Of a stretch of DNA of 64,000 bases, positions 16,633 through 41,507 are shown in pieces. Positions within the stretch are counted from its first letter, which is position 1, and each line of letters begins with the position of its first letter. Origin of the DNA: Polaromonas sp. CF318 (GTDB lineage: Bacteria > Pseudomonadota > Gammaproteobacteria > Burkholderiales > Burkholderiaceae_C); contig NZ_AKIV01000074.1 in NCBI RefSeq assembly GCF_000282655.1, forward strand, positions 62,001 through 126,000. Direction: 5' to 3'. A model generated the notes under the pieces. The model saw nothing but the letters and a program-made list of their open reading frames with translations. It was not told the origin of the DNA and made no database searches. The position numbers and the translations under genes are program-made.

Positions 16633-16642
16633 GCACACCAAT

Positions 16643-23423: not shown

Positions 23424-23930
<507 letters not shown>

Positions 23931-24653: not shown

Positions 24654-27044
24654 ATGGGGATATTTGATCGAGTAGTAAAGGCCGGGCGTCCTGCCGCCGG
24701 GGTTGCCGGGGAAGAGCCTTTGAGCCCCACTGGGCCATCCGCCGGGCAGCTGCTGGAGCAAGGCATGGCGCTCGAAGAGCAAGGACAACTCGAAGAGGCA
24801 CTGCGCTGCTACGACAGGGCTGTGAGCCTGGAGCCCGAGCTGGCGCGGGCGCACTTCAACCGGGGCACCATCTTGCTGGACCGCGGCGATGCGCAGCAGG
24901 CCCTGGAAGCCTTCATGAAAGCCGTGCGCTACAAACCAGACTCGGCCGGCGCCCACTTCAATCTGGGGGCCACTCACGCGCGGCTGGACCAGCATGAGGC
25001 AGCCGCGTCGTCCTACCGCGAGGCGCTGGCGCTCAAGCCGGATTTCGCCGAGGCGGAGCTGGCCCTGGGCGCGGCGCTTGAAGAGCTCGGGCAGGACGAA
25101 GCGGCCGCGGAGAGCTATCGCCACGCGTTGGAGCTCCAACCTTCCTATGCGGACGCCGATGACAAACTGGTCAATCTCCTGAGGCGGCTTGAACGTTTCG
25201 AAGAACTCGCGGACACCTACCGCCGGATGCTGGAAACCAACCCCCACAATGCCGATTGGCTCAATAACCTGGGAGCCGTCCAGAGAAAACTCGGGCGGTT
25301 CAAAGATTCGGCCGCCAGTTTTCGCCGGGCAGTGGCGGCCGACCCGGATGATGCGCTGGCGCACAACAACCTCGGCGCCACATTGCGCACGCTCGGGCAG
25401 CTTACGGAGGCTGTGGACTGCTATCGGCAGGCGCTGAAGATTCGGCCGAACTTCATCGAGGCCCATCACAACCTGGGCAACCTCCTGGCCGAGCTGGGGC
25501 AGGCCGATTCCGCCGTGGCAAGCTACCGCGAAGCGCTGGAGATCAACCCTGACTTCGCCGAATCGCTCACCGCCATGGGCGCGGTTCTTCAGACACGGGG
25601 ACAATTTGACGAGGCGGTTGAATGCCACCGGCGGGCTTTGGCCATCAAGCCTGATTACGCGCAGGCTCATAGCAATCTCGGAAATGCCCTGCAAGATCTT
25701 GGGCAGCTTGAAAGCTCCCTGAAAAGCACGCGCCGCGCGCTGGAGCTCCAGCCGGACTTCACCGAAGCCCACAACAGCCTGCTCTTCGTACACAACTATC
25801 TGGCCGACCAGCCTGTTGTGAATTTGCTGATCGAGGCGCGGCGTTTTGGCGATGTGCTTGCGCGCCGTGCCCGGCCCGCGCTGGCTTGGGCCAACACACC
25901 CGACCCACATCGCCGCCTGCGCGTGGGCCTGGTTTCCGGGGATTTTTGTATCCACCCTGTGGGCTACTTTCTGGATGCTGTTATGGCGGCTTTGGCGTCC
26001 AGCGCCACCTCGCTGGAGCTGTTCGGCTATCCCACACGCAGCTGCGATGACGAGCTCAGCCAGCGGCTCAAGGCCTGCTGCCGCGCCTGGCATTCGCTGG
26101 TCGGACTTTCGGACGAGCATGCGGCTGAACTGATACGCGAAGACGGTATTGACATCCTGATCGATCTCTCGGGACATACCGCGTTCAACCGCCTGCCGGT
26201 ATTTGCCTGGAAACCCGCACCTGTGCAGCTCTCCTGGCTAGGCTATTTCGCGACCACCGGCGTGCCGGCCATGGACTACCTCCTCGCCGACCCCTGGACC
26301 TTGACGGCCAGCGAGGAAGCCAGCTTCACGGAGAAAATCTGGCGCCTGCCGGAAACACGGCTGTGCTTTACGCCCCCAAGTGCGGATATCGGCGTCTCGC
26401 CGCCTCCGGCCTTGTCCAATGGCTACGTCACATTCGGCTGCTTCAACAACCTGACCAAGATGAATGATGCCGTCGTGAAACTGTGGGCCCAGATACTGAA
26501 TACCGTGCCGGCGAGCCGCCTGTTTCTCAAGGCCCGCCAGCTGCAGCAGGCGTCCGCACAACGCGAGGTCATGGCCCGTTTCGCCGCCCACGGCATTGAG
26601 CCTGGCCGGTTGATCCTGGAGGACTATGTTCCTCGGGAGAACTATCTGGCCGCCTACCAGCGGGTGGATATCGCCCTGGACCCCTTTCCTTATCCGGGCG
26701 GGACCACAACGGTTGAAGCCCTGTGGATGGGCGTGCCCGTTTTGACGCTGGCCGGTGAACGCTTTTTATCGCGCCAGGGCGTCGGCCTGATGATGAACGC
26801 GGGACTGCCCGAATGGGTCGCCTCGGACCCCCGCGACTATCTCTCCCGTGCCGTCGCGCACGCCGGGGACTTGCAGAAGCTGGCCACGTTGCGCGCAGGC
26901 TTGCGGTCGCAAGCGCTGGCCTCACCGATCTTTGATGCGCCGCGCTTTGCCGGACATTTTGAAACGGCGTTGCGCGGCATGTGGCAAGCATGGTGCGCGG
27001 AAAATACCGCGCCCGCGGCCACACAGGCGGGAAGCAGGCAATGA
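24654..27044 (+). CDS. TPR-containing O-GlcNAc transferase-like protein (GT41), copy 1
   Basis: 796 residues. Residues ~25-390 are about ten TPR units (consensus here AxAHFNLGxxxxxLGQ...AxASYREALxLKPDF). The GT41 catalytic part (about 410-780) has SGDFCIHPVGYF, GIDILIDLSGHTAFNRL, WLGYFATTGVPAMDYLLADP, the lysine in FNNLTKMND equivalent to human OGT Lys842, and the UDP-binding ALDPFPYPGGTTTVEALWMG with the conserved Asp. All key positions are intact. Bacterial SPINDLY/OGT-like enzymes glycosylate cytoplasmic proteins, sometimes appendage subunits. First of three tandem paralogues; its stop overlaps the next start as ATGA. Confidence 0.92.
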   Translation: MGIFDRVVKAGRPAAGVAGEEPLSPTGPSAGQLLEQGMALEEQGQLEEALRCYDRAVSLEPELARAHFNRGTILLDRGDAQQALEAFMKAVRYKPDSAGAHFNLGATHARLDQHEAAASSYREALALKPDFAEAELALGAALEELGQDEAAAESYRHALELQPSYADADDKLVNLLRRLERFEELADTYRRMLETNPHNADWLNNLGAVQRKLGRFKDSAASFRRAVAADPDDALAHNNLGATLRTLGQLTEAVDCYRQALKIRPNFIEAHHNLGNLLAELGQADSAVASYREALEINPDFAESLTAMGAVLQTRGQFDEAVECHRRALAIKPDYAQAHSNLGNALQDLGQLESSLKSTRRALELQPDFTEAHNSLLFVHNYLADQPVVNLLIEARRFGDVLARRARPALAWANTPDPHRRLRVGLVSGDFCIHPVGYFLDAVMAALASSATSLELFGYPTRSCDDELSQRLKACCRAWHSLVGLSDEHAAELIREDGIDILIDLSGHTAFNRLPVFAWKPAPVQLSWLGYFATTGVPAMDYLLADPWTLTASEEASFTEKIWRLPETRLCFTPPSADIGVSPPPALSNGYVTFGCFNNLTKMNDAVVKLWAQILNTVPASRLFLKARQLQQASAQREVMARFAAHGIEPGRLILEDYVPRENYLAAYQRVDIALDPFPYPGGTTTVEALWMGVPVLTLAGERFLSRQGVGLMMNAGLPEWVASDPRDYLSRAVAHAGDLQKLATLRAGLRSQALASPIFDAPRFAGHFETALRGMWQAWCAENTAPAATQAGSRQ

Positions 27045-29242
27045 GTGCGCTTGAGCCGGTGGCCAAGGCTGGGGAGCCCACCGCGGGCGCCGCCAGCGGG
27101 GCGCCCTTGAACCCCGGACGATCGGCCGAGCAATTGCTGGAGCAAGGCATGGCATTGGAGCAGCAAGGGCAGCCCGAAGAGGCCCTGCTGCGCTACGACT
27201 CCGCCATAGCCCTGATGCCGGAACTCGCACGGGCGCACTTCAACCGTGGCACCATTTTGCTGGACCGCGGCGATGCGCAGCAGGCCCTGGAAGCCTTCAC
27301 CAAAGCCGTGCAATACAAGCCGGACTCGGCCGGCGCCCATTTCAACCTTGGAGCCGCTTATTCACGGCTGGATCAGCATGAGGCGGCCATGTCCGCCTAC
27401 CGCCAGGCGCTCTCGCTCAAGCCGGATTTCGCCGAGGCGGAGATGGCACTGGGTGCAGCGCTGGAGGAGCAGGGGCGCGACGAAGAGGCCGTGAGGAGTT
27501 ATCGCCGTGCCCTGGAAATTCAACCCGGCTACGCCGAAGCCCAGGACAAGCTGGCTTACAGCCTGGTGCGGCTTGATCAATTCGACGAAGCCGCAGCCTG
27601 CTTCCGCCGGATCCTTGTTCGAGACCCCCACAATGTGGAAGCCCTCAACAGCCTGGGACTCCTCCTGAACATCAAGGGCCAATTTCACGAGGCGGTCAGC
27701 CAATACCGGCTTGCGGTGAAATTGAAGCCGGACTTTCTGGCCGCGCATGGCAACCTCGGCAATGTACTGATGGACTTGCACCAGTTCAGCGACGCGGCAG
27801 CAAGCTATCACAGGGTGCTGGAGCTCAACCCCGATAGCGCGGATGCGTACAACAACCTCGGAAGCGCATTCAAAGACCTTGGTGATCTGGACAAGGCCCT
27901 GGCGAGTTATCGCAAGGCCATGACGCTCAAGCCGGATCTTTTGGTGGCCCACAGCAATCTGTTGATGGTCCAGAACTACCTGTCCGAACAGCCGCCGCAG
28001 GAGTTGGTGGAGGAAGCACGCCGGTTTGGTGAAACGGCCGCCCGCCTGGCCCCGCCGGTGGAGCCTTTGGACAACAGCCCGATGCCCGACAGATGCCTGC
28101 GGATCGGCATTGTCTCGGCGGACTTGAGCGCCCATCCCGTCGGTTATTTCATCGAGAGCATTCTTGCCGCCCTGGTGGCCGAAGCAGCCGGACGCCTGGA
28201 ACTCTTCGCCTACGCCAATTCATCACAATCGGACGAAGTGACGGCGAGGATCAAATCCCATCTTCAGGGCTGGCATCCGGCGCACGACCAGTCCGATGAA
28301 TCCCTGGCGCAGCGCATACGCGATGACCGCATAGACATCCTGATTGACCTGTCCGGTCATACGGGAGGGAACCGTTTGCCCGTCTTTGAACGGAGGCCGG
28401 CCCCTGTTCAAATCAGCTGGCTGGGTTACTTCGCCACCACGGGCGTCCCGTCCATCGACTACCTTGTTGCCGATCCATGGACGCTGCCCTCCCAACTGGA
28501 GCAGCATTTCACCGAAAAGATCCTGCGCTTGCCGGAGACCCGCCTTTGCTTCACGCCTCCAACGCTTGACCTGAACACGGGTCCACTGCCCGCGCTGGCC
28601 AACGGCTACGTGACCTTCGCCTGCTTCAATGCTCTGCCGAAAATGGGCGACGCCGTCGTGGCCCTGTGGGCCAGGATATTGCAGGCAGTGCCCGGGAGCC
28701 GCCTGCACCTCATGGCCTCTCAACTCAGCGAAGCCTCAACCCGGCAAACCACCCTGGAGCGGTTCATGGCGCATGGGATTGATGCGACGCGGCTGCTGAT
28801 CCAAGGGCCCATGCCGCGGATCAAGTACCTGCAAACCTATCAGCGCGTGGACATCGCCCTTGACCCATTCCCCTACACGGGCGGCACCACCACGGCCGAA
28901 GCGCTATGGATGGGGGTGCCGGTGCTGACATTGGCGGGCAACACCTTTTTGTCGCGCCAGGGCGTTGGACTGCTGATGAATGCGGGCTTGTCCGAGTGGA
29001 TTGCCTCCGATGCGGATGACTATGTGAAGCGGGCGGTTGCGCACGCCGGCGATTTGCAGAAACTGTCCGCACTGCGCTCGAGTTTGCGGCCCCAGGTGAT
29101 GGCCTCGCCGCTTTTCGACGCGCCGCGCTTTGCCCGGCACTTTGAAGCCGCCCTGCGTGGTGTATGGCACAGGTGGTGTGCCCAGGCGAGGTCACCCTCG
29201 CCTCGGCCGCATATTGAAGAGGCGAGAGATGGGAAGATTTGA
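27041..29242 (+). CDS. TPR-containing O-GlcNAc transferase-like protein (GT41), copy 2
   Basis: 733 residues from ATG 27041. The first TPR block (LARAHFNRGTILLDRGDAQQ) is nearly identical to copies 1 and 3, whereas later TPRs diverge and there are about two fewer units than in copy 1. The catalytic half keeps SADLSAHPVGYF, ILIDLSGHTGGNRL, FNALPKMGD and ALDPFPYTGGTTTAEALW. Translational coupling (ATGA with copy 1, 14-base overlap with copy 3) implies the three enzymes are made together. Divergence in the acceptor-reading TPRs while the catalytic sites stay intact suggests different protein targets; this is inference. Confidence 0.92.
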   Translation: MSALEPVAKAGEPTAGAASGAPLNPGRSAEQLLEQGMALEQQGQPEEALLRYDSAIALMPELARAHFNRGTILLDRGDAQQALEAFTKAVQYKPDSAGAHFNLGAAYSRLDQHEAAMSAYRQALSLKPDFAEAEMALGAALEEQGRDEEAVRSYRRALEIQPGYAEAQDKLAYSLVRLDQFDEAAACFRRILVRDPHNVEALNSLGLLLNIKGQFHEAVSQYRLAVKLKPDFLAAHGNLGNVLMDLHQFSDAAASYHRVLELNPDSADAYNNLGSAFKDLGDLDKALASYRKAMTLKPDLLVAHSNLLMVQNYLSEQPPQELVEEARRFGETAARLAPPVEPLDNSPMPDRCLRIGIVSADLSAHPVGYFIESILAALVAEAAGRLELFAYANSSQSDEVTARIKSHLQGWHPAHDQSDESLAQRIRDDRIDILIDLSGHTGGNRLPVFERRPAPVQISWLGYFATTGVPSIDYLVADPWTLPSQLEQHFTEKILRLPETRLCFTPPTLDLNTGPLPALANGYVTFACFNALPKMGDAVVALWARILQAVPGSRLHLMASQLSEASTRQTTLERFMAHGIDATRLLIQGPMPRIKYLQTYQRVDIALDPFPYTGGTTTAEALWMGVPVLTLAGNTFLSRQGVGLLMNAGLSEWIASDADDYVKRAVAHAGDLQKLSALRSSLRPQVMASPLFDAPRFARHFEAALRGVWHRWCAQARSPSPRPHIEEARDGKI

Positions 29243-31382
29243 CCAAGCCATGGGCGCCGGGCAAGAAGCTCCGGGCAATGGACTATCGGCCGCGCAGCTG
29301 CTGGAGCAAGGCATGGCGCTTGAGCAGCAGGGACAACTCGAAGAAGCGCTGCGGTGCTACGACACGGCCATCAGCCTGATGCCCGAACTCGCGCGGGCGC
29401 ACTTCAATCGGGGCACCATTTTGCTGGACCGCGGCGATGCGCAGCAGGCCCTGGAGGCTTTCACCCAGGCCGTGCGCTACAAGCCGGAATCCGCCGGCGC
29501 CCACTTCAACCTGGGGGCCGCCCACACGCGGCTGGAGCAGCATGAGGCAGCAGTCTCCGCCTACCGCCAGGCGCTTGCACTCAAGCCGGATTTTCCCGAG
29601 GCGGAGATGGCCCTGGGAACGGCGCTTGAAGAACTCGGGCAGGACCAGGCGGCAGTGGCAAGCTATCGCCGCGCACTGGAAATGAAGCACGACCACGTCG
29701 AAAGCCATGAAAAGCTGGTCAAGCTTTTGGGGCGGCTCGGGCGCTCCAATGAGCTCGCGGCTGTCTATCGCCGTGTGCTGGAGCTGGATCCTGACAACGT
29801 AGAGATACTCTACAACTTGGGCCTGATCCTGCGCCACCTGGGCCGCATGCAAGACGCCGCCATGAATTTCCGGCGCGCGGTGGAGCTCAGGCCCGGCTTC
29901 ATTGATGCCCTTTGCAATCTCGGAGACGTCTCCATCGGGCTACGCCTCTTCGACGACGCGGTGGCAAGTTACCGCAAGGTGCTGGAGCTCGAACCAGAGA
30001 ATGCGGGGGTGCACCACAACCTGGCGGCCGCGCTGAAGGACATTGGCCGGCTGGACGAGGCGCTGGAGAGCTACCACCGCGCATTGGCCATCAAGCCCGA
30101 TTTCCCGATCGCACAAAGCAACGTTTTACTGATTCAGCACCTGCTGTCCAGGCTCTCTGTCGAACAGCAACTGGAAGAAGCCAGGCGCTTCGGTACGATG
30201 GTTGCCCGGCTGGCCCCGGCCCCTGCCGCCCCGGGAAATCTTGCGGATCCTTTCAGATGCCTGCGAATCGGATTTGTCTCGGGCGACCTGCACTCGCACC
30301 CCGTGGGCCACTTTATTGAAAGCGTGCTGGCTGCGTTGTCGGCAGGGGCGGCCGGCCGATTGGAACTCTTTGCCTATTCCAACTCATTGACAGCGGACGA
30401 GGTCACAGCCCGTATCAAGCGCCATTTCCAGAGCTGGCAATCCGTGGTTGGCCTGGCCGACGAAGTGATGGCCCAACGCATCCGCGACGACGGGATAGAC
30501 ATCCTGATCGACCTGTCCGGCCATACGGGCAAGAATCGCCTGCCGGTCTTTGCCTGGAAACCCGCCCCCGTGCAGATCAGCTGGCTGGGCTACTTCGCCA
30601 CCACGGGCGTCGAGGCCATCGATTACCTGATTGCCGATCCCTGGACCTTGCCCTCCGAGCTGGAGAGTCATTTCACCGAAGAGATCCTGCGCCTGCCGGA
30701 AACCCGGCTTTGTTTCACCCCGCCTGCGCACGACGTGGAGATCGCTCCCCTGCCTGCTTTGCGTAACGGCTATGTGACCTTTGCCTGCTTCAATACCCTG
30801 TCAAAGGTGAACGATTCGGTTGTCGCCCTATGGGCCCGGGTACTGCACGCCGTACCGGGCAGTCGCCTGCAACTCGTGGCGCCACCGGACCAGCAAGTCC
30901 ATTGGCAGCGTGTTGTGACGGAGCGTTTTGCCGCCCACGGCATCATCGTCGAGCAGCTGCAATTACTGAGCGCGGGACCTCGCGCGGCCTACCTGGCGAC
31001 CTACCAGCAGGTCGATATCGCCCTCGACCCATTCCCCTATACCGGTGGAACGACCACGGCCGAAGCCCTGTGGATGGGTGTGCCGGTGCTGACGCTGGCC
31101 GGCAAGAGTTTTCTGGCTCGCCAGGGTGTTGGGTTGCTGATGAACGCCGGATTACCCGAGTGGGTGGCCGAGGATGCCGATGATTACGTGAGGAGGGCGG
31201 TCTCGCACGCCGGCGATTTGCAGCGCCTGGCATCGCTGCGCGCCGGCATGAGGGAGCAAGTGCTGGCTTCACCGCTTTTCGACGCGCCGCAGTTTGCCCG
31301 GCATTTTGAAGAGGCCTTGCGCAACGTGTGGCGCAAGTGGTGCGAGGCGCAAACCGCCTCGAAGGCGCGCGCCGGGAACTGA
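29229..31382 (+). CDS. TPR-containing O-GlcNAc transferase-like protein (GT41), copy 3
   Basis: 717 residues from ATG 29229, preceded by gaagaggcgagag, which closely resembles the leader of copy 1 (gaagaggcaaggg), a footprint of gene duplication including the start region. About nine TPRs (25-345) precede the catalytic half with SGDLHSHPVGHF, ILIDLSGHTGKNRL, WLGYFATTGVEAIDYLIADP, FNTLSKVND and ALDPFPYTGGTTTAEALW. All GT41 key residues are present. The gene ends 31 bases before the convergent GspE-like gene; I see no strong terminator between them. Confidence 0.92.
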   Translation: MGRFDQAMGAGQEAPGNGLSAAQLLEQGMALEQQGQLEEALRCYDTAISLMPELARAHFNRGTILLDRGDAQQALEAFTQAVRYKPESAGAHFNLGAAHTRLEQHEAAVSAYRQALALKPDFPEAEMALGTALEELGQDQAAVASYRRALEMKHDHVESHEKLVKLLGRLGRSNELAAVYRRVLELDPDNVEILYNLGLILRHLGRMQDAAMNFRRAVELRPGFIDALCNLGDVSIGLRLFDDAVASYRKVLELEPENAGVHHNLAAALKDIGRLDEALESYHRALAIKPDFPIAQSNVLLIQHLLSRLSVEQQLEEARRFGTMVARLAPAPAAPGNLADPFRCLRIGFVSGDLHSHPVGHFIESVLAALSAGAAGRLELFAYSNSLTADEVTARIKRHFQSWQSVVGLADEVMAQRIRDDGIDILIDLSGHTGKNRLPVFAWKPAPVQISWLGYFATTGVEAIDYLIADPWTLPSELESHFTEEILRLPETRLCFTPPAHDVEIAPLPALRNGYVTFACFNTLSKVNDSVVALWARVLHAVPGSRLQLVAPPDQQVHWQRVVTERFAAHGIIVEQLQLLSAGPRAAYLATYQQVDIALDPFPYTGGTTTAEALWMGVPVLTLAGKSFLARQGVGLLMNAGLPEWVAEDADDYVRRAVSHAGDLQRLASLRAGMREQVLASPLFDAPQFARHFEEALRNVWRKWCEAQTASKARAGN

Positions 31383-31413: not shown

Positions 31414-33819
31414 TTACTTGATGCAGACGGAACGGACCATCTTCAGGTCGGTCAGGCCCATCAGCACTTTCTCCATGCCGTCCATCTTCAGCGTGTGCAT
31501 GCCGCTGCTGACCGCGCTGGCGAACAGCTCCGCGACGCGGGCGCGCTCCTGAATCAGTTTTTTCGCGGCGTCGTCGGCGATCATGAGTTCGTGCAGGCCG
31601 ACGCGGCCCTTGTAGCCGGTCTTGCCGCATTTATCGCAGCCCACGGCGCGATACACGGTGAGTTTGCCGTCCTTGCCGTAGCGCTCCATCCAGTCTTCAA
31701 ACAGCTTTTGCGACTCGCCGCCCTCGTCGGCTTTCCAGGCGTCGGTGTGCCGCAGCTCTTCGGAGTATTCCTTGATGAAATCCTTGATTTCCTGCGAGCT
31801 CAAGACATGAGCCTCCTTGCAGTCGCACAGTTTTTTGGCCAGGCGCTGCGCCAGGATGCCCAGCAGCGCATCGGCGAAGTTAAACGGATCCATGCCCATG
31901 TCCAGCAGGCGCGTGATGGATTCGGGCGCCGAATTGGTGTGCAGGGTCGAGAACACCATGTGGCCCGTGAGCGAGGCTTCGACGCCCATGGCCACGGTTT
32001 CCTTGTCGCGCGACTCGCCGACCATGATGATGTCCGGATCAGCCCGCAGAAAGGCGCGCATGACCAGCGCGAAGTCGATGCCTGCCTTGCGGTTGATCTG
32101 CACCTGGCGCAGGCCCTTTTGGGTGATTTCAACCGGGTCCTCCGCCGTCCAGATCTTGGTGTCCGGCGTGTTGAGGAATTTCAGGATGGAATGCAGCGTG
32201 GTGGTCTTGCCCGAGCCCGTGGGGCCGCAGACATAAAAGAGGCCGTAAGGCTTGGAAACGGTTTTCTCCAGCCGCTCCTTATTGTGCGCCGTCAGCCCGA
32301 GTTTTTCCAGCGGAATCGGCTCACCCGCGGCCAGGATACGCATGACCACGTCTTCCACGCCGCCGGCCGAGGGAATCGTGGCCACGCGCAACTCGATGTC
32401 CAGCGGGCCGTACTTCTTGAACTTGATCTTGCCGTCCTGCGGCTTGCGCTTTTCCGAAATATCCAGGTCGCACATGATCTTGAGCCGGGTGACCATGGCC
32501 TGGCGGAACTGCGCCGGCACCTCGATATAGGGCTGCAGCGTGCCGTCCACGCGAAAGCGTATGCCGGTCTTGGCCTTGCCGGGCATGGGCTCGATGTGGA
32601 TGTCCGACACCTTCTGGTTGTAGGCGTCGATGATGACCTTGTTGACGAACTTGACCAGCTCGTTGTCGGCCGCCGCGGACTCCAGCGAGGAATCGTCGGC
32701 GGCTTCGCCCTCCAGGGGCGAGTCCATGTCCGCCAGCAGCTGGTCGATGGAACTGCTGTCCGCGCCGGCGCCGAACAGCTGGTTCAGCGTCTCATCAAAC
32801 TCGGTCTGGGTGGTGACGCGGTAGGCGAACCTGGTGATGCGCGGAAACACCTGCGGCACGACGCGCGCCCCGCGCACGGCCTCCGGGTCCATGCACATGA
32901 TCACCAGGCCTTCGGTGGTTTCCTCCAGCGGTATCCAGCCTTGCTGTTCGATGAAGTCGCGCTTGAGCGGGCCGTGCAGCATTTCGGAGCGTATGCGGCC
33001 GGTGTTGAAGGGCTCGTAGCCCACACCGAAAAACTTCGCCAGGGACTGGCCGATCTGGGCGGGACGCAGACGGTAGTTGGCCATCAGCATGTGCTCGACC
33101 GACTTGCCCTCCTCGCGCGCCTGCTGGATGCATTGCTGCAACTCGTCCTGCGACAGCACGCCTTCGGTGACCAGCCCGTCGTACTTGGTCGCCTTGCGGC
33201 GCAGGCCGTCCTCCGCCCTCTGCATGCGCTGGCGTATCGCGATGCCCAGCGTTTTGCAGAGCTGGCGCGCACCGTCCTCCTCGAGCTTGCCGAAAGGTTG
33301 GTCGCTGCGGTTGTTGATGACCTGAAGCACGCCATACAGCGTGTCGCCGTCCATGACCGGCGCCACCAGCATCTGCTTGGTCCTGTAGCCCGAGCGCTTG
33401 TCGACCTCCTGGAGGAAGCTCAGGGCCGGGTGGATTTTCTTGAGGGCCTCTTCATCGTAGACATCGGCGATGTTGACCATCTGCCGGGACATGGCCACAT
33501 AGCCGGCGATGCTTTGCGCGCTGACCGGAAGCTTCAGGTCGCGGCTGGTGTTGAGTCCGGTCTTGACCTTGGAGACGATGGAGCTGCGGTCTTCATTGAC
33601 CGCGTACAAGGTCAGCCGATCGGCATTGAAGAGCTTGCAGATGTCCTGGCTCGCCTCCAGCATGATCTGGTCGATGTTTTCGGTCTCATGGATGCGGTTG
33701 GTGACCAGCTGCAGCTGCCGGAAGTACAAGGCCTCGAAGGTAACGCCGCGCTCCTGCGGCGGCAGCATCTGCGAGTCGAAAAACTCGTCCTGGGGATCGC
33801 GTTGCAGTACGGCGCTCAT
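31414..33819 (-). CDS. GAF-domain PilB/GspE-family secretion ATPase
   Basis: 801 residues. An N-terminal GAF-like sensor (about 40-195: DICKLFNADRLTLYAVNEDR, MLVAPVMDGDTLYGVLQVIN) precedes an MshEN/GspE-N domain (about 215-350) and the ATPase core with Walker A GPTGSGKTT near 533, RADPDIIMVGESRD (Walker B) and GHMVFSTLHTNSA. The zinc-finger arms are CDC near 664 and CDKC near 727, so the first pair is CxC instead of the usual CxxC. PilB needs no GAF domain, so this is a ligand-regulated paralogue. It is the last gene of the signalling train and overlaps the phosphodiesterase by four bases. No other pil or gsp gene is nearby. Confidence 0.9.
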   Translation of the reverse strand: MSAVLQRDPQDEFFDSQMLPPQERGVTFEALYFRQLQLVTNRIHETENIDQIMLEASQDICKLFNADRLTLYAVNEDRSSIVSKVKTGLNTSRDLKLPVSAQSIAGYVAMSRQMVNIADVYDEEALKKIHPALSFLQEVDKRSGYRTKQMLVAPVMDGDTLYGVLQVINNRSDQPFGKLEEDGARQLCKTLGIAIRQRMQRAEDGLRRKATKYDGLVTEGVLSQDELQQCIQQAREEGKSVEHMLMANYRLRPAQIGQSLAKFFGVGYEPFNTGRIRSEMLHGPLKRDFIEQQGWIPLEETTEGLVIMCMDPEAVRGARVVPQVFPRITRFAYRVTTQTEFDETLNQLFGAGADSSSIDQLLADMDSPLEGEAADDSSLESAAADNELVKFVNKVIIDAYNQKVSDIHIEPMPGKAKTGIRFRVDGTLQPYIEVPAQFRQAMVTRLKIMCDLDISEKRKPQDGKIKFKKYGPLDIELRVATIPSAGGVEDVVMRILAAGEPIPLEKLGLTAHNKERLEKTVSKPYGLFYVCGPTGSGKTTTLHSILKFLNTPDTKIWTAEDPVEITQKGLRQVQINRKAGIDFALVMRAFLRADPDIIMVGESRDKETVAMGVEASLTGHMVFSTLHTNSAPESITRLLDMGMDPFNFADALLGILAQRLAKKLCDCKEAHVLSSQEIKDFIKEYSEELRHTDAWKADEGGESQKLFEDWMERYGKDGKLTVYRAVGCDKCGKTGYKGRVGLHELMIADDAAKKLIQERARVAELFASAVSSGMHTLKMDGMEKVLMGLTDLKMVRSVCIK

Positions 33820-34607
33820 AGTTCAAACTCCTGGCCGGCCCGCAACCACCGGATGTCGTGCGTCACATTGGGGCCAAACGGTCGTGTCTGGTCAAACCGC
33901 TGTATCTCGGCCATGATGAGGTCGGTCTCGGCGGGCTTGGTGTGGGTGATGTAAATCGGGTAGTTTTTGCCGCGCTCTATGCAGTCGAGCTCATTGGCCA
34001 GCGCATGGGGCGACAGGTGCAGGCTGCGCTTGGCAAGGTCGCGCTCGCGGTTGCTGAAGGCGGTTTCGATGACCAGCATGGCCACGTTCATCTGGTTGAT
34101 GCGGGCCCACAGCGCCGGGTTCTGCTCGGTGTCGCCGGTGAATACCCAGCAACCCTTGCCGGTGGCCACGGCGTACCCCACGGCCGGCACGGTGTGCACG
34201 GCGGGCAGCACTTCCACGTGCTTTCCCGCCAGCAGCAGGGTCTGCCCCACATCCAGGGGGTGAAAGCTGACGAACGGCGCCTGCGGCGTGGGGATCCTGG
34301 AAAAATCCGGCCAGATGGTGTTGTTGAAGATATGCGCCTTCAGCGCGTTGATCGTGCCCTGCAGGGCGTGTATCTGTATCGGCGTGGTGCGCCGCGCCGC
34401 GATGGCGTCGACCATCAGCGGCAGCGCGGCGACGTGGTCCAGGTGCGAGTGCGTCAGCAACACGTGATCTATACCGGCCATCTCGTCGAGCGTGAGATCG
34501 CCCACGCCCGTGCCCGCATCGACCAGCAAATCATGGTCCAGCAGAAAAGACGTGGTCCGGCAGTCCTTGGCGATGGCTCCCGAGCAGCCTAGTACACGTA
34601 CTTTCAT
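33816..34607 (-). CDS. Class II 3',5'-cyclic-nucleotide phosphodiesterase (metallo-beta-lactamase fold)
   Basis: 263 residues. The metal-binding motif THSHLDHVAALP (about residues 51-62) and the C-terminal YITHTKPAE match PDEase_II (CpdP/PDE1-type, PF02112), which hydrolyses cAMP. Further features are VFTGDTEQNP (metal Asp) and ETAFSNRE. Length is normal for bacterial members without signal peptide, so cytoplasmic location is likely. The start lies 35 bases after the adenylate cyclase stop and the end overlaps the ATPase start (ATGA). A cyclase and its opposing phosphodiesterase in one transcript suggests tight control of a local cAMP pool. Confidence 0.9.
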   Translation of the reverse strand: MKVRVLGCSGAIAKDCRTTSFLLDHDLLVDAGTGVGDLTLDEMAGIDHVLLTHSHLDHVAALPLMVDAIAARRTTPIQIHALQGTINALKAHIFNNTIWPDFSRIPTPQAPFVSFHPLDVGQTLLLAGKHVEVLPAVHTVPAVGYAVATGKGCWVFTGDTEQNPALWARINQMNVAMLVIETAFSNRERDLAKRSLHLSPHALANELDCIERGKNYPIYITHTKPAETDLIMAEIQRFDQTRPFGPNVTHDIRWLRAGQEFEL

Positions 34608-34642
34608 GTGGTTTTCCGGTTGGCCCTGAGTTGGTCTTTGTA

Positions 34643-36892
34643 TTATTTGGTCTCAAAATTGGTTGCGCCATCCCACTCCGGATCAAACGGCAACAGCCTC
34701 ATCGAGGCTACACGCTCCGCATACAGCCGGTAAAGGAACTTTTTGCCATTTGCCCGCTGCAAATTTAGTAACTGCACGTCACATTGGTCCCAATCCTGGG
34801 CCCGGTAGGCCTTCAGGGCCAAGCCCCAGGTCTTCAGTTCGTCGGCATTGTCCTTGTCGATCCGGTCCGCAGGCGCCAATGGCCAAAAAATGGCCACAGC
34901 CTGATCTTTGCCCTTCACGCGGACTTTGTCCAGTTCCTGCCATGCAAAATCCCCTGCCAGCTTGCGGGTGGACTCGCTGACCACGATATCGACGCCATAG
35001 GTTTTGGACAAGCCCTCCAGGCGCGAGCCCAGGTTCACGGCATCGCCGATCACGGTGTAGCTGCGGCGGATGTCCGATCCCATGTCGCCCACGCACATCG
35101 TGCCGGTATTCAGGCCTATGCCGATACCGATCTCGGGTAAACCCTTGGTCCTGTGCTCTTCATTGATCCTGCGCACGGCGTTTGACATCTCGAGCGCGGT
35201 TTTCACGGCCAGCGCGGCGTGGTCGGGCGTGTCGACAGGAGCGCCCCAGAACGCCATCACGCAGTCGCCCATGTATTTGTCGATGGTGCCGCGGTTGCCG
35301 CGTATCAGGTCTGTCAAGCGGCTGAAGACGCTGTTGAGCAGGGCCTGCAGCTGGGTCGGCTCCATGGTCTCCGACATCTTGGTGAAACCGCGCATGTCGC
35401 AGAACATGACGGTCAGCTCCTTGGTGGTCGCCTTCATGCTGTAGCTGTCGGGGTCTTTCACCATCTCGTCGACCAGCTCGGGCGGCACATAGGTACCGAA
35501 CAGGTTGGCCAGTTCGCGCTTGGAACGGCTTTCCACGAAATAGCCATAGCTCATGTTGAGCGCGAAGGCCGTCAGCGCCATGACCAGCGCGCTGGCCAGC
35601 GGCAGCACCAGGCCGTAACCCGCATACAGCCAGAAATTCAGCCCGCCGATGGCCGCAATCACGGCCAGGCTGACCAGGACCGCGCGGGAAGCCGACAGCA
35701 GGGGCAGCGCGAAAGCCAGCGTCAGGCCCGACAGCAGCAGGATGACAATCTCAAAGCCGACGGCGTAATCGGGCTTCACGAACACCTTGCCGTCCAGGAA
35801 ACCCGAGATCACGTTGGCATGGGTTTCCACGCCGGGGTAGGTCTCCCCGACCGGCGTCACCCGCAAATCGAGCAGGCCGGGGGCCGTGGTGCCTATCAGG
35901 ACGATCTTGTCCTTGAGTGCACCGGGCGCCAGACGCTTGCCCAGCACGTCGGCCGCCGAGATGTAACGAAATGAACCGCCGCTGGCGCCGCCATGGCCCC
36001 GGAACGGCACCAGCGTGGCGACCCGGTCGTCGACCGGAATCGCCAGGGTCTTGCTGCCCTGCTTGAGCAAAATACTCTCCAGCCCCTGGTAGTTGCGGGT
36101 GAGGAATTTTTCCGGCGGAAAACCGGGCTCGACCCGGGGCAGGCCCGCCAGCATGCGGAACATGGCCAGCGCCAGCGATTCGTAGTACTGCCCCTTGTAT
36201 TCCGCCAGCAGCGGGATGGAGCGCACCACGCCGTCGCCCTCGGTGATGGAATTGAAAAAGCCGCCCAGCGGCGCGGCCTTGGCCAGCTGCTCGATGTTGG
36301 CGCCGTAGCCGTTCCAGCTGGTGAACTTGATGGGGCGGCCGGCCAGCGCATCACGGCTCATGACGGGCGCCGGCAGGACGCCGTTGACGCGCCCATCGCG
36401 GTCGCTGGTGAAGTAATAGCCCATCACGACGGGCCGCTTTTCGATCGCCTTGGCGAACACCGCGTCGTAGTCCAGGCCGGCCTGCAGCTGGTTGAGTTTT
36501 TCCGAGAAACCGGGCTGGTCCTTGAGCTCGGCCTGCGCCAGCTGCTTGAGCCGTTTCAGGCCCGAGCTTTCGTCGGCCTCGGCGAACACCACGTCAAAGC
36601 CCATCAGGGCCGTCTTCTGGCGGTCCTGCAGTTCCTCGACCAGCTCCGCGAGCTTGTTGCGCCCCCAGGGCCAACGGCCGACCTCGGCCAGGCTTTTCTC
36701 GTCAATGTCGACGATGACGATGCGTTCATCGAGCGTGCGCGGCATGGTTGCCCGAAGCCGCGCGTCGTAGATGATGTCGTCCAGCCGCTGCAGCACCCCG
36801 AGGCGCATGACGCCGCCGGCATGCAGCAAGGCAAACACAAGCGGTATCAGCGTGACGGCGATGCGAGGCCAGTGCCGGGAGAGGAGTCTCAT
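34643..36892 (-). CDS. CHASE2-domain adenylate cyclase (class III)
   Basis: 749 residues. A first helix (AVTLIPLVFALLHAGGVMRL) is followed by a periplasmic CHASE2 domain (about 35-350: IVDIDEKSLAEVGRWPWGRN, VLIGTTAPGLLDLRVTPVGE), three membrane helices (about 360-445) and a class III cyclase domain (about 480-665). Both metal aspartates are present (MFCDMRGFT and YMGDCVMAFWG), as is the Lys of TIDKYMGD and the Asp of YTVIGDAVNLGSR, which favour ATP over GTP. The transition-state Asn and Arg lie in VNLGSR. A short C-terminal tail follows. The product cAMP would be removed by the next gene. Confidence 0.93.
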   Translation of the reverse strand: MRLLSRHWPRIAVTLIPLVFALLHAGGVMRLGVLQRLDDIIYDARLRATMPRTLDERIVIVDIDEKSLAEVGRWPWGRNKLAELVEELQDRQKTALMGFDVVFAEADESSGLKRLKQLAQAELKDQPGFSEKLNQLQAGLDYDAVFAKAIEKRPVVMGYYFTSDRDGRVNGVLPAPVMSRDALAGRPIKFTSWNGYGANIEQLAKAAPLGGFFNSITEGDGVVRSIPLLAEYKGQYYESLALAMFRMLAGLPRVEPGFPPEKFLTRNYQGLESILLKQGSKTLAIPVDDRVATLVPFRGHGGASGGSFRYISAADVLGKRLAPGALKDKIVLIGTTAPGLLDLRVTPVGETYPGVETHANVISGFLDGKVFVKPDYAVGFEIVILLLSGLTLAFALPLLSASRAVLVSLAVIAAIGGLNFWLYAGYGLVLPLASALVMALTAFALNMSYGYFVESRSKRELANLFGTYVPPELVDEMVKDPDSYSMKATTKELTVMFCDMRGFTKMSETMEPTQLQALLNSVFSRLTDLIRGNRGTIDKYMGDCVMAFWGAPVDTPDHAALAVKTALEMSNAVRRINEEHRTKGLPEIGIGIGLNTGTMCVGDMGSDIRRSYTVIGDAVNLGSRLEGLSKTYGVDIVVSESTRKLAGDFAWQELDKVRVKGKDQAVAIFWPLAPADRIDKDNADELKTWGLALKAYRAQDWDQCDVQLLNLQRANGKKFLYRLYAERVASMRLLPFDPEWDGATNFETK

Positions 36893-36954
36893 GAGACCTC
36901 GGGTGTTGGGTGCTGACGGTCCGCGTTATGGCGAAGCCCGGGCGGGCACCCGGG

Positions 36955-37614
36955 TCAATGTTGGACGAACTGCATCTGCGTTCCGGCCAGCTCGAGCATG
37001 TCGCCGTTTTTCAGGATGACAGGCTCGGCCCCGATAGGCGCGCCGTTGAGGGTCGGTTTCCCGGCCCCTTCCACGTGGGCCACGACAAAGCCCTGGGGCC
37101 GTTTGGTGATCGCGGCCACCGCGACGCCCGGCTTGCCGATGGTGGTCACCACCTTGACCAGCGCCACTTCGCGGCCGGCAGCGGCACCCGACATGACCTT
37201 GATGGCCGCGCTGATGTTGCCGCCCACATCGGCGGCGGGCGCCGCCGCCGGCGCACCGGCAGGAGGCGCGACCAAGCCCGCGGAGCCGGCCTTGATGATC
37301 ATGGTTTTCTCGAAACCGGCAGGCTGGGCCTCGTTCACGTACTTGATCTTGTACTTGCCGATTTCCACCGTATCGCTGTTTTGCAGCAGCAGTTTTTTCA
37401 CGGCCTTGCCGTTGACGTAGGTGCCGTTGGTGCTGTTGAGGTCTTCAAGATAGACCTCGTTGCCGGACATCTGCAGGACGGCGTGCTCCCCGCTGACAGC
37501 GAGGTTGTCAATGACGATATCGTTGTAGGGCCTGCGGCCCAGGGACGTCCTGTCTTTCGTCAACTGGACTTCCTTGATCACAACGCCGTCAATAGAGACG
37601 ATCATTTTCGGCAT
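36955..37614 (-). CDS. Tandem FHA-domain protein
   Basis: 219 residues. The first FHA domain (about 5-95) is canonical, with SLGRRPYNDIVI, VSGEHAVL and DLNSTNGTYVNG, including the Arg, Ser/His and Asn that bind phosphothreonine. A Pro/Ala linker (about 115-135) leads to a second FHA-like fold (about 140-217: TIGKPGVAVAAITKR, PTLNGAPIG) that keeps the strand pattern but lacks the Arg and SxxH phosphopeptide residues. The protein therefore has one likely phosphothreonine reader and one degenerate domain for other contacts. It lies between the phosphatase and the cyclase, so it may connect kinase output to the cyclase or ATPase. Confidence 0.9.
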   Translation of the reverse strand: MPKMIVSIDGVVIKEVQLTKDRTSLGRRPYNDIVIDNLAVSGEHAVLQMSGNEVYLEDLNSTNGTYVNGKAVKKLLLQNSDTVEIGKYKIKYVNEAQPAGFEKTMIIKAGSAGLVAPPAGAPAAAPAADVGGNISAAIKVMSGAAAGREVALVKVVTTIGKPGVAVAAITKRPQGFVVAHVEGAGKPTLNGAPIGAEPVILKNGDMLELAGTQMQFVQH

Positions 37615-37652
37615 GGCCGACTCCTGTCTGTTTTTAAATTTTCAGTCACCGC

Positions 37653-38438
37653 TTATTTTCCCAGCATTCTCGACAAAAGGCCGCGCTTGGCCGAGTCTTC
37701 TTTCGCGTAAGCCAGCAAGACGGAAATATTATCGCGTCCGCCGGCCTCGTTCGCCGCCGCAATCAGCTGCTTTGACTTCTGCTCCAGCGTCCCCGCGCCC
37801 GTCAGGATGGCGGCGATACCCGGATCGACCACCATGTCCGACAGGCCGTCGGAACACATCAGGTAAAGATCGCCCGCCTCCACGCGGTGCTCGTTGACCT
37901 CCACCAGCACGGTGTCCTCCACGCCCAGGGCGCGCGTCACCAGGTTCTTGTTCAGGGAGGTCAGCGCCTGCTCGGGCGTGATCAACCCGGCGTCGATCTG
38001 CTCCTGGAGCAGCGAATGGTCCTTGGTGATCTGCTGGAGTTCCTGGCCGCGCAGGCGGTAGCAGCGCGAATCGCCGATATGGCCCAGCATCAGGCGCCCG
38101 TCCTGGAAGACGCCCACGACCAGCGTGGTGCCCATCCCCGTGTACTGGGGATTGGAGTTGGCCGCGTTGAAAATCGAATGATTGGCGTTCTCCACGCAGA
38201 TTTCCATCGCCCGGCGCACTTCCTTGGCATTCGCATGCCGGCCTGCCTGGGACAGCCAGCGCCCCATTTCCGACTTGATGAAGGCCACGGCCATGCCGCT
38301 GGCGATCTCACCGGCGTTGTAGCCGCCCATGCCGTCCGCCAGGATGCAAAGCCGCGTCGCCGGGTCAAACGCCACCGCATCCTCGTTGTTGTCCCGCGTC
38401 AGCCCTGGGTCGGTATGTGTACAAATCTCGTAGATCAT
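37653..38438 (-). CDS. PP2C-family Ser/Thr protein phosphatase
   Basis: 261 residues from ATG 38438; the upstream extension overlaps the kinase stop and has no similarity. The family motifs are GLTRDNNEDAVAF (metal Asp), ILADGMGGYNAGEIA, LGHIGDSRCYRLRG, LMCSDGLSDMV and GGRDNISVLL. This is the Stp1/PrpC type that reverses Hanks-type kinase phosphorylation and depends on Mn2+ or Mg2+. It starts 13 bases after the kinase gene, so kinase and phosphatase are co-expressed. No membrane segment is present. Confidence 0.95.
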   Translation of the reverse strand: MIYEICTHTDPGLTRDNNEDAVAFDPATRLCILADGMGGYNAGEIASGMAVAFIKSEMGRWLSQAGRHANAKEVRRAMEICVENANHSIFNAANSNPQYTGMGTTLVVGVFQDGRLMLGHIGDSRCYRLRGQELQQITKDHSLLQEQIDAGLITPEQALTSLNKNLVTRALGVEDTVLVEVNEHRVEAGDLYLMCSDGLSDMVVDPGIAAILTGAGTLEQKSKQLIAAANEAGGRDNISVLLAYAKEDSAKRGLLSRMLGK

Positions 38439-38451
38439 CTTGTTCGTGTTG

Positions 38452-41193
38452 TCACTGGGTATCTTTGTCGGCGGCGGGCGGCCTGGAGACAACGGTTTTT
38501 TCAAAGGTCTGGGCTCCGCCGGCATTCAAGGCCTGGGTGGCATCATAGGCCCTGGGCTCGGGCGCCTGCGCGGCGGAAGCGGATTGCACCACGGTGGCAT
38601 CGAATGAGGGCGCGGCCGGCGGGGCGGCATGGGGAGAAGGGGCAGGGGCGGCCAGCGGCGCGCCGCCTTCCAGGGCCGCGATGACCTCGCGCAGGTCGGC
38701 GGCGAAACGATCGCCGTCCTGGTAGCGGAGCTCGGGCTTTTTGGCCAGCGACAGCGCGACCACCTCGGCCAGCCGGGCGGGCAGTTCCTTGCGGATGATG
38801 CGGATGTCCGGCGCCTCTTCGTTGGCGATCTTGTACATCAGCTCGGCCATGGAGTCGCCCCGGAAAGGCAGCACGCCGGCCAGCATCTGGAACAGCATCA
38901 CTCCCAGCGAATACAGGTCCGAGCGCCCGTCGACCTTCTTGCCGGCGATCTGCTCGGGCGACATGAAGCTGGGCGTGCCCAGCACCAGGCCGGTCTTGGT
39001 CTTGCTGGAGTCCGTGATGCGGGCGATGCCGAAGTCGGTCACCTTCACCGTATCGCTGTCGATCTCGTACATGATGTTGGCCGGCTTGATGTCCCGGTGC
39101 ACCACATTCTGCTTGTGCGCGTAGGCCAGGGCTTCGGCCACTCGCGCCACGATGGACAGGACCTTGGGCACCGGCAGCAGGCTTCCATCCTTGGTGACGT
39201 CGGCCAGGTCCTTGCCCTTGAGGAACTCCATCGCGATATAGGCCAGGTCATGCTCTTCGCCGGCATCAAAAATTGTCACGATGTTCTGGTGCTGCAGGCG
39301 CCCGGCCGTCTCGGCCTCGCGGAAGAAGCGTTCGCGCGCGTCGTCGAGTTCCTCGCCCTCGAACTCCTGGCTCAGCGCCATGGTCTTGATGGCCACGACA
39401 CGGCCTATCTTGGGGTCCTTGCCGAGGTAGACCACGCCCATGGCGCCCTTGCCCAGCTCTTTTTCCACCTGGTAGCGGCCCAGCATGGGCTTTTCGACGG
39501 CGCCGCCATCCAGCAGCATGGTGCCGCCGGGGTGGGAGCCGCCACCGCCCAGAATGACCGTCTCAGACAGATTTTTGGCGCGGTTGAGCTTGGACTGCAG
39601 GTCCTTGTGGTTCTTGTTGTAGGTGGCCATGTATTCGTACACGGCCTGGGCCTTGTTGAACTGCCGCTTGCGCTCGAAGTCCAGCGCGAGGTTGTTCATG
39701 TTGTCCATCAGCGCGTCAGTGAAGGGCACGCGGCGAAAGCGGTCAAAGGCCATGTCCAGCTGGCCCTGGCCTTGCAGCGCCAGGCCCATCATGCGGTTGG
39801 TTTCAGCGGACTCTTCGTCGGACTTGAGCTTGCCGGCCTCGGTCATGAGGAAGCGCTTGGTGGTCAGCGCCAGGTGGCCTATCACCAAAAGCGCGGCGGG
39901 GAAGACAAATTTGAGCCAGGTCGCGGCCGTCGACAACAAGCTGAACTCGACCACCAGCAGCACCACGAAGAGCAGCAGCGTGACGATGGCGGCCTTGCCC
40001 GCCGACAACCGGGGCAGGCCGGCGATCAGGTAGCCGGCCACCAGCAGTAAAACGCCCAGCGTGACCCACACGCCCCAGCCCGGCTGCACGATGAAATGCT
40101 CGCTCAGGATGCTGGAAGTGATGTGCGCGATGGTTTCCGCCGGCGAAAGCCCGGGGCCGGCCGGGGTCGGGAACTGGGTGCCAACGCCTGCGGCGGTGGC
40201 ACCGATGATCACGATCTTGTCGGCGTATTTGGCGGCCGGGATCTTGCCGGAGATCACGTCGTAGAACGAATCCACCGCGAAAGCGGGCCGGCCGTCCCTA
40301 CCCTTGTAGAACTGCGGCAGCATCAAGGCCGATTCGTCGGTCTTGATCATCAGCTTGCCGATCTGCACCGACTCACCCACATTGAGCTTGATGTCCGCCG
40401 GCCCGAGGTTCAGGCTCTTGGCCGCCACCAGCAGACTCATGGAGGGCACGGCCTTGCCGTAGTAATTGATCAGCAGCGGCTCCTGGCGCACGGCGCCGTC
40501 CACGTCGGGCAGCTGGTTAAGGTGGGCGATGCCTGCAGCCGCCGCGCCTATCTGCTCGATGGGCTGCTGCCCGCGTATGGCCGGCAGCGAGAAGTTGTTG
40601 GTTTCATCCACCGCGCTCTTCAGGGCATAGGCCGGCAGCGGATTGTCGGGGCGGCCCTGCGGCACGCCCAGCTGGAAAACAGAGGGCACCAGGACGTTGC
40701 CGGCCTTGCCCATGCTGGCCGCGAGCTTGGCGTCGGTGTCCAGTGCGACTTCGGCCTCGGCGATGACCTTGCCGAGCTGCTCGGGCAGCCCGCCCTGGGC
40801 CGCCGTCGCCGGATCGGCGGCCGGGCCCAGCGCTTCCTTCATCTTGCGGATGAACACCAGCCCGCGGTCCGTCTGCGGCTCAAAGAAAAACGCCGTGTGC
40901 GCGATGGTTTTGGCCTTGGCGGCCGAAAGCTGGTCGATCAACTGCGCATGCACGTCGCGCGGCCATGGCCAGCGCCCTATGTTGGCAATGCTCTGGTCGT
41001 CGATGGCGATGATAGCGATGCGGTCTGAAGGCTGGCGCGAAGTGCTGGTGCTCGCGAAGTCGTAGTAGCGGCGCTCCAGGGTGCCGAAGAAATCGGTCAG
41101 GCCGTGCAGAAAAAGGACGGCCAGCACCACCAGGACCCCGACAAACCAGTCTGCCCGCCAGAACTGACTCAGCTTTCTAGATGATTTGGCCAC
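38452..41193 (-). CDS. CHASE2-domain Hanks-type Ser/Thr protein kinase
   Basis: 913 residues. One N-terminal helix (WFVGVLVVLAVLFLHGLTDF), a periplasmic CHASE2 domain (about 45-360, starting IAIIAIDDQSIANIGRWPWP) and three helices (about 365-445) precede a linker with a TPR-like segment and the kinase domain (about 570-840). Active-site elements are intact: GKGAMGVVYLG, VAIKTM, HRDIKPANIM (near 697), VTDFGIAR and MSPEQIAG. The Pro/Ala-rich C-terminus contains TQALN- and DATVV-type threonines, possible autophosphorylation sites for an FHA reader. It is the first gene of the leftward train kinase-phosphatase-FHA-cyclase-phosphodiesterase-ATPase. Confidence 0.94.
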   Translation of the reverse strand: MAKSSRKLSQFWRADWFVGVLVVLAVLFLHGLTDFFGTLERRYYDFASTSTSRQPSDRIAIIAIDDQSIANIGRWPWPRDVHAQLIDQLSAAKAKTIAHTAFFFEPQTDRGLVFIRKMKEALGPAADPATAAQGGLPEQLGKVIAEAEVALDTDAKLAASMGKAGNVLVPSVFQLGVPQGRPDNPLPAYALKSAVDETNNFSLPAIRGQQPIEQIGAAAAGIAHLNQLPDVDGAVRQEPLLINYYGKAVPSMSLLVAAKSLNLGPADIKLNVGESVQIGKLMIKTDESALMLPQFYKGRDGRPAFAVDSFYDVISGKIPAAKYADKIVIIGATAAGVGTQFPTPAGPGLSPAETIAHITSSILSEHFIVQPGWGVWVTLGVLLLVAGYLIAGLPRLSAGKAAIVTLLLFVVLLVVEFSLLSTAATWLKFVFPAALLVIGHLALTTKRFLMTEAGKLKSDEESAETNRMMGLALQGQGQLDMAFDRFRRVPFTDALMDNMNNLALDFERKRQFNKAQAVYEYMATYNKNHKDLQSKLNRAKNLSETVILGGGGSHPGGTMLLDGGAVEKPMLGRYQVEKELGKGAMGVVYLGKDPKIGRVVAIKTMALSQEFEGEELDDARERFFREAETAGRLQHQNIVTIFDAGEEHDLAYIAMEFLKGKDLADVTKDGSLLPVPKVLSIVARVAEALAYAHKQNVVHRDIKPANIMYEIDSDTVKVTDFGIARITDSSKTKTGLVLGTPSFMSPEQIAGKKVDGRSDLYSLGVMLFQMLAGVLPFRGDSMAELMYKIANEEAPDIRIIRKELPARLAEVVALSLAKKPELRYQDGDRFAADLREVIAALEGGAPLAAPAPSPHAAPPAAPSFDATVVQSASAAQAPEPRAYDATQALNAGGAQTFEKTVVSRPPAADKDTQ

Positions 41194-41507
41194 TACCCGT
41201 CCCTTGTCCTGTTTCGCTGTGCATAAGCTAGACGATTTTTAATTGCTTTGTATTACCGGCCGTCCGGTGACGCCGTCGTTTTGGCGCACCAGACGACGCC
41301 TGCCGCCCTTTGTTTCGGCAGGTTACAAGTCTCCTGATAGGGGACATTAACAGACGGGGTGCGGCTGGACAAGGGACTTTTGCACGGCAGCCATGCCGAC
41401 TGTTGCAAATAAGTGGTATTTCAGCAGATGTGCAAAAGCCCGCACCATGCGGGCTTCAGGCAAGTGCAGGCTTGCCGTCCCGCAGCCGCGGGACGGGCGG
41501 GCGGATT
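41194..41507. other. Intergenic region upstream of the kinase operon
   Basis: 314 bases without a gene. It must hold the promoter of the leftward signalling train. A cctgccg/cggcagg hairpin occurs at 41299-41322. The part next to terC contains the terC terminator (41434-41457). The A/T-rich stretch around 41225-41260 is the likeliest promoter position, but I cannot define boxes with confidence. Confidence 0.5.
41434..41457 (-). terminator. Terminator of the second terC gene
   Basis: A hairpin agcccgc/gcgggct (41437-41443 with 41449-41455) is followed on the minus strand by TTTT, 50 bases beyond the terC stop. Confidence 0.65.

Follow-up and report, generated by a model that had tools for sequence, protein, structure and literature searches.

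The six-gene cluster

We examined a window of 64,000 nucleotides of Polaromonas sp. CF318 (assembly GCF_000282655.1, contig NZ_AKIV01000074.1, positions 62,001–126,000), in which genes for a kinase, a phosphatase, an FHA protein, a cyclase, a phosphodiesterase and an ATPase follow one another on the minus strand. The assembly comprises 5.0 Mb in 159 contigs and has its best relatives in Polaromonas. In window coordinates, the cluster runs from 41193 to 31414:

38452..41193, minus strand: PK, CHASE2 receptor Ser/Thr kinase, 913 residues (open reading frame, Pfam, kinase motifs)
37653..38438, minus strand: PP2C, phosphatase of the Stp1/IreP family, 261 residues (NF033484)
36955..37614, minus strand: FHA protein, 219 residues, with a canonical FHA1, a disordered linker and a degenerate FHA2 (Pfam, profile and structure comparison)
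34643..36892, minus strand: AC, CHASE2 class III cyclase, 749 residues (Pfam, catalytic motifs)
33816..34607, minus strand: PDE, class II-like phosphodiesterase of metallo-beta-lactamase fold, 263 residues (PF02112, yeast PDE1 relative)
31414..33819, minus strand: PILB, GAF-MshEN-T2SSE ATPase, 801 residues, proposed type IV pilus extension motor (Pfam, models, genome inventories)

The Pfam domains are, in the same order, CHASE2 and Pkinase; PP2C; FHA; CHASE2 and Guanylate_cyc; PDEase_II/Lactamase_B_2; and GAF, MshEN and T2SSE. As an earlier, sequence-only reading of this DNA had described, the six genes are intact open frames on one strand, with gaps of 13, 38, 62, 35 and -4 bases (taking 38438 as the PP2C start). 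That reading had also judged the catalytic residues of all five enzymes to be in place, in agreement with the motifs we found in PK, PP2C, AC, PDE and PILB. No terminator-like site was detected on the minus strand at the five junctions.

Conservation of the cluster

The cluster was followed in two samples. A named set held the best 80 of at least 588 relatives from a scan of named genomes. An order sample was drawn evenly from Burkholderiales (200 genomes, that of strain CF318 included) and searched for PILB at E ≤ 1e-190, which gave PILB in 85 of the 200 genomes and 45 of the 109 genera. Regions were taken from 80 of the 84 others (G053, G148, G155 and G166 were left out); 62 had full context, defined as 9.5 kb to the left and 2.5 kb to the right, and 18 were dropped. 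Presence was called by hidden Markov model score, and truncated genes counted as absent (e.g. in L118, L131 and L167).

The order PK-PP2C-FHA-AC-PDE-ATPase spans Comamonadaceae to Rhodocyclaceae, from Polaromonas to Azospira, Propionivibrio and Azonexaceae, and is kept at PILB identities down to 61% and at identities down to about 44% for the other proteins. A gene-neighbourhood search across Burkholderiales had been suggested as a check; the order recurs in relatives, which excludes a chance arrangement. PK, PP2C, FHA, AC and PDE were all present at 30 of the 62 order-sample loci. The genes for PP2C and FHA occurred together at 49 of these loci and were both missing from 13, never one without the other.

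The six-part system of the sequence-only reading is thus a conserved unit, but it is not fixed at six genes: many loci run into a pilin gene. In other lineages the unit also holds a cyclic nucleoside monophosphate (cNMP)-binding and rhodanese protein between PDE and PILB, and a GAF and HD-domain protein after PILB. Several Rhodoferax loci are without AC and PDE. At six order-sample loci, most of them in family f15, PDE and PILB are the sole members of the set.

Beyond the order, a class sample of 232 genomes (own included) yielded 12 further genomes with PILB at E ≤ 1e-170. These gave 13 loci, two from one genome and some cut by contig ends, with a GAF domain recognised by eye in five and no match to PK, PP2C, FHA or PDE in any of the 13. 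Six ATPases from other orders (L170, L172, L174, L176, L178 and L179) are about 50% identical to PILB from residue ~200–216 onward; their N-terminus is a different region, with RLGE-type MshEN motifs (by eye) and no GAF domain. One GAF-bearing ATPase outside the order (L177) has cyclase-like (845 residues) and GAF-HD-like genes within 13 kb, not adjacent to it.

Joint change of the two CHASE2 proteins

Kinase and cyclase change together. At the 62 order-sample loci both were present at 31 and neither at 28, with AC alone at two and PK alone at one. For the 54 of 80 named loci with 7.4 kb on the left, the corresponding counts were 33, 12, 2 and 7. Three f14 loci scored as AC-less hold a divergent cyclase, which bears CHASE2 in the one scanned; when it is included, the order-sample counts become 31, 25, 5 and 1. 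At these loci (L103, also L111 and L136) the divergent CHASE2 cyclase (624–633 residues) and genes for a weakly SH3-like protein and an M48 peptidase lie directly upstream of PDE-PILB (Pfam on L103).

A PILB tree of 118 rows requires a minimum of 22 changes in PK and 21 in AC. Across 19 independent pairs, the two changed in the same direction in 13.1 on average and in opposite directions in 0.1 (median p = 0.000244). The result was 12.9 against 0.1 when the divergent CHASE2 cyclase counted as present; removing in addition three rows with kinase-fragment labels left 16 pairs, with 11.9 against 0.1. PP2C and FHA, which lie between PK and AC, are often kept, so a single deletion cannot explain the joint change. 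The two CHASE2 proteins are co-inherited on independent branches.

Whole-genome searches for the missing genes covered 18 genomes, 17 of whose loci are among the 30 kinase-less of the 62 order-sample loci. Both genes lay elsewhere in four genomes (two of the kinase matches containing one stop), a cyclase with a truncated kinase in one, and a cyclase only in one; no full-length PK or AC was found genome-wide in the other 12 of the 18. Some joint absences at the locus therefore reflect relocation. In the named set, no kinase was found genome-wide at E ≤ 1e-90 in any of the 14 searched genomes with a kinase-less locus, and two positive controls were recovered.

The GAF domain of PILB

Ahead of its MshEN and T2SSE domains, PILB carries a GAF domain:

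33226..33714, minus strand: GAF of PILB, contact-equivalent residues R68, T70, V85, D140 and S143 (alignment to CyaB2)

Its best match is 1YKD, Anabaena CyaB2 bound to cyclic adenosine monophosphate (cAMP; sequence E = 7.6e-26, profile E = 2.1e-36), and its top sequence relatives are CyaB2 and phosphodiesterase GAF domains. For the CyaB2 GAF domains, PMC4411481 gives R291, T293 and D356 as polar cAMP contacts. Their equivalents are kept in 147, 145 and 147 of 147 GAF sequences, respectively, and the hydrophobic site equivalent to I308 is V, I or L in 144 of the 147. In CyaB2 such domains belong to a cyclase, here to a motor of pilus type. Two further differences are that S or T replaces the N359 contact in all 147 sequences and that the NKFDE motif is not kept in full. 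The earlier proposal of a GAF domain of the cyclic-nucleotide type is borne out by these relatives and by the R, T and D contacts, so far as sequence can tell, and cAMP is its predicted ligand. The GAF domain of an HD-GYP protein, meant as a comparison, also matches PDE5 and CyaB2 GAF domains and is thus unusable as a negative control.

Alternatively, cAMP could serve this type IV pilus locus solely via a cNMP-binding regulator, either a Vfr/CRP-like one encoded elsewhere or, in other lineages, the cNMP-binding/rhodanese protein, with the GAF domain of PILB binding another ligand or only shaping the hexamer. NKFDE, conserved in most characterised cyclic-nucleotide GAF domains according to PMC4411481, is incomplete in the PILB family, where N and F alone are invariant, and a structure search with the GAF domain did not distinguish the ligand class; both count for a regulator. 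So does the cNMP-binding protein inside the operon of other lineages, which also counts in favour of the main interpretation given below. In those parts of a 2024 review (PMC11656802) that treat second messengers, c-di-GMP (cyclic diguanosine monophosphate) is the one that binds extension motors directly, and cAMP works via transcription. They describe the Pil-Chp-CyaB-Vfr route of P. aeruginosa, where cAMP is tied to type IV pili through the expression of pilus genes, whereas in the present proposal its target would be the motor. Against a regulator alone stand the base-contacting R, T and D, near-invariant across a broad family, and the nearest sequence relatives, which are CyaB2 and phosphodiesterase GAF domains. 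We consider this alternative unlikely.

Cyclase and phosphodiesterase

The cyclase retains the motifs FCDMRGFT, DKYMGD and GDAVNLGSR; its K and T residues, we assume from class III cyclases in general, predict ATP as substrate. PDE retains HSHLDH and FTGDT and matches PF02112 (49.5 bits, cut-off 23.7) over 61 residues only. Yeast PDE1 heads its PDB relatives in profile searches (E = 4.3e-12), closely followed by Cas14 and RNase Z proteins; PDE itself falls short of the RNase Z model TIGR02651 (52.1 of 292.95 bits). H53, H55, D57, H58, H138, D159 and H222 are invariant in 50 sequences and are taken for metal ligands. PDE is annotated here as a putative cAMP phosphodiesterase.

Kinase, phosphatase and FHA protein

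PK has intact catalytic motifs (GKGAMG, AIKT, HRDIKP and DFG) and scores 309.2 bits against the PknB PASTA kinase model NF033483, under the cut-off of 450; its sensor is CHASE2. PP2C matches the Stp1/IreP model NF033484 (248.8 bits, cut-off 230) and retains NEDA, ILADGMGG, GDSR, DGLSD and GGRDNISV. Candidate phosphorylation sites occur in both the kinase, whose C-terminal tail also contains FDATVV and FEKTVV, and the FHA protein:

39547..39567, minus strand: juxtamembrane SETVILG of PK, candidate phospho-acceptor or FHA ligand (conserved motif)
37294..37314, minus strand: FEKTMII linker motif of the FHA protein, GarA/OdhI-like candidate phospho-switch (conservation)

The first belongs to a SETV[IM]LG-type motif, the pattern [SA][ED]T[VIL][IVML]LG being present in 64 of 80 PK sequences. 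The second lies in a linker with a predicted local distance difference test score below 50 in the model. It has the form ExTx[VI]-hydrophobic, could be phosphorylated and bound intramolecularly, and presumably resembles ETTSVFR of GarA/OdhI. Of the loci with PK, 73 of 77 have it, as do 19 of the 30 that lack PK; 10 rows were left aside for insufficient context and five because no FHA core was recognised in them. When the pattern was loosened and four kinase labels were assigned manually, the motif was lost from 10 of 27 kinase-less and 2 of 75 kinase-bearing loci; tested on five independent pairs, the tie between motif loss and kinase loss was not significant, the independent events being few.

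The sequence-only reading had called this protein a tandem FHA. Profile comparison (hhalign probability 97.2%) marks its second domain as FHA-like, but by eye this domain is without the residues that we take to bind phosphothreonine. FHA1 is nearest to GarA and OdhI by sequence, and by structure FhaA, GarA and OdhI tie as best; a structure search with the FHA model returned FHA1 matches only. Unlike in the GarA/OdhI-PknB/PknG-PstP switch, the conserved motif here follows the FHA domain instead of preceding it, a degenerate second FHA is added, and the protein scores under the FhaB cut-off and under that of OdhI (60.2 of 200 bits), so the likeness is one of working principle only.

A membrane kinase, a PP2C phosphatase and an FHA protein steering an envelope machine also make up the threonine phosphorylation pathway of type VI secretion, whose components are PpkA, PppA and Fha. 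Here the kinase sensor is CHASE2, the machine would be a type IV pilus, cAMP enzymes are joined to the set, and the FHA protein scores 38.4 bits against the type VI model TagH (TIGR03354, cut-off 120.25). PMC5995506 names this pathway. Searches of open-licence PMC full texts brought up no description of the present cluster.

A further possibility is that two independent modules share one operon, with AC-PDE-PILB as the pilus part and PK-PP2C-FHA regulating another process, such as the envelope or metabolism after the manner of GarA/OdhI. This would fit the GarA/OdhI-like FHA1, the separate absence of AC and PDE or of PP2C and FHA, and the lineages that retain just PDE-PILB. However, at those 49 of the 62 loci of the order sample PP2C-FHA adjoins PILB, often with PK and AC missing, and PK and AC are co-inherited. 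We hold this arrangement to be improbable.

Pilin neighbourhood and motor identity

PILB matches the superfamily model PF00437 (374.3 bits), with Walker A, Asp box, Walker B and His box present and GPTGSGKT, DIIMVGE and HTNSA intact. It scores under the cut-offs of canonical PilB (TIGR02538, 464.6 of 675.65 bits), TfpB (NF053534, 388.2 of 850) and GspE (TIGR02533, 432.2 of 630.25). The sequence-only reading had left open a secretion or pilus motor and had overlooked a pilin gene downstream:

23424..23885, minus strand: type IV pilin, PilA type (sole PF00114 match in the genome)

The search that gave this single match was confined to the PF00114 family. In the window, three opposite-strand tetratricopeptide repeat (TPR)/glycosyltransferase genes stand between PILB and the pilin. 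Of 77 named loci with sufficient flank, 38 have a same-strand pilin signature within 310 bp after PILB, and so do 37 of 54 when the 57 most similar are taken alone; in the order sample, where an HD protein usually intervenes, none of 80 has one there; within 4.6 kb, a pilin occurs at 25 of 37 named and 22 of 60 order-sample loci. At six loci (L009, L023, L028, L033, L044 and L059), two or three successive pilin signatures with identical or near-identical N-terminal segments follow PILB, possibly pilin variants.

The CF318 genome also encodes a canonical PilB adjoining a PilC-like protein, a separate TfpB, two GspE-like ATPases under the cut-offs and three more PF00437 matches (open frames of 381, 387 and 707 residues). 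The cut-off of the PilB model was exceeded in 9 of 24 PILB genomes tested, and no PilB-model match at E ≤ 1e-150 was found in any of five f15 genomes tested. In six f15 genomes, PF00437 gives just two proteins of the PilB/GspE class, PILB (797–811 residues) and one open frame of 557–570 residues elsewhere; all further matches, PilT-size pairs among them, fall behind in length or in score (no more than 214 bits). Where it was typed, in two genomes, the second ATPase gives nearly the same score with the models for PilB and GspE. Its neighbours there are GspG, which exceeds its cut-off, and a GspD-like secretin, which does not. A PilC-like platform protein occurs at a separate place in all six f15 genomes and PilQ over its cut-off in all five tested. 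Since the second ATPase belongs to a type II secretion-like locus where typed, and PilC-like proteins and PilQ are present, PILB is the remaining extension candidate and, by elimination, likely the pilus extension motor of this lineage.

We reject PILB as a type II secretion ATPase, a very improbable assignment despite its T2SSE family and its 432 bits to the GspE model, on that model's cut-off of 630, the nearby pilin and the separate ATPase of the GspG-bearing locus in both typed f15 genomes. Of the two machines first proposed, the type IV pilus is thus favoured over secretion.

Two known kinds of motor resemble PILB. MshE/PilB ATPases with a c-di-GMP-binding MshEN (PMC11656802) also carry an N-terminal second-messenger domain on an extension ATPase; PILB differs in having a GAF domain in front and a degenerate c-di-GMP motif (NF053729, 18.9 of 38 bits), on which ground c-di-GMP binding by its MshEN was rejected. 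TfpB, the second extension motor of Acinetobacter (PMC8213720), is likewise a PilB paralogue used beside canonical PilB; PILB is far below the TfpB cut-off and has a separate TfpB in its own genome.

Other features of the window

A TerC gene precedes the cluster on the same strand, and TerC-like proteins (by eye) also stand ahead of it in L014, L031 and L033. A sigma-70 scan gave 0 sites against 1.7 in shuffles and carries no information on promoters.

41194..41507, minus strand: probable region of the operon promoter, separating TerC from PK

Of the TPR genes at 24654–31382 (plus strand), the first matches Glyco_transf_41 and the other two look alike; together with a PglL/Wzy_C-type ligase at 8597–10111, their products might glycosylate the pilin. 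At 10001–18000, GC content falls to 52–58%, against 60–68% elsewhere in the window, over a block of ABC exporter and glycosyltransferase genes (functions by eye) that looks like an acquired surface-polysaccharide island.

Proposed mechanism

We interpret the locus as a type IV pilus control operon in which a cAMP-gated motor and a threonine-phosphorylation switch work in parallel (probability about 0.6). PILB would be a type IVa pilus extension ATPase with an N-terminal GAF domain as receptor for cAMP or a closely related cyclic nucleotide. A periplasmic signal would prompt the CHASE2 cyclase to make cAMP, which the class II PDE would break down, so that the cAMP level sets motor activity allosterically. 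The two CHASE2 domains may sense one common signal, as the sequence-only reading proposed, and the kinase may act on the motor. In parallel, the CHASE2 kinase would phosphorylate its own threonines and the FHA linker (FEKTM); FHA1 would then bind its own linker or the kinase, switching the availability of the FHA protein to the pilus machine, and PP2C would reset the switch.

Ligand binding by the GAF domain and the target of the FHA protein are the weakest links of this interpretation. No decay of the GAF contact residues was seen where the cyclase is absent, and this persistence lends no support to a dedicated link from AC to GAF.

Implications

A wider proposal is that direct cAMP gating of a pilus motor by the motor's own GAF domain, together with a kinase/PP2C/FHA switch, is ancestral in a large part of Betaproteobacteria, and that in at least one lineage such a motor is the sole one for pilus extension; here we see the chances as evenly balanced. 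If true, it would be a new way of controlling type IV pili, built around a motor that is common in the Burkholderiales genomes sampled. Through the kinase-PP2C-FHA set, control by threonine phosphorylation would reach beyond type VI secretion to type IV pili as well. Pilus extension, for its part, would be tied by a cAMP-gated motor to the sensing of the envelope or of surfaces, with no delay for gene expression.
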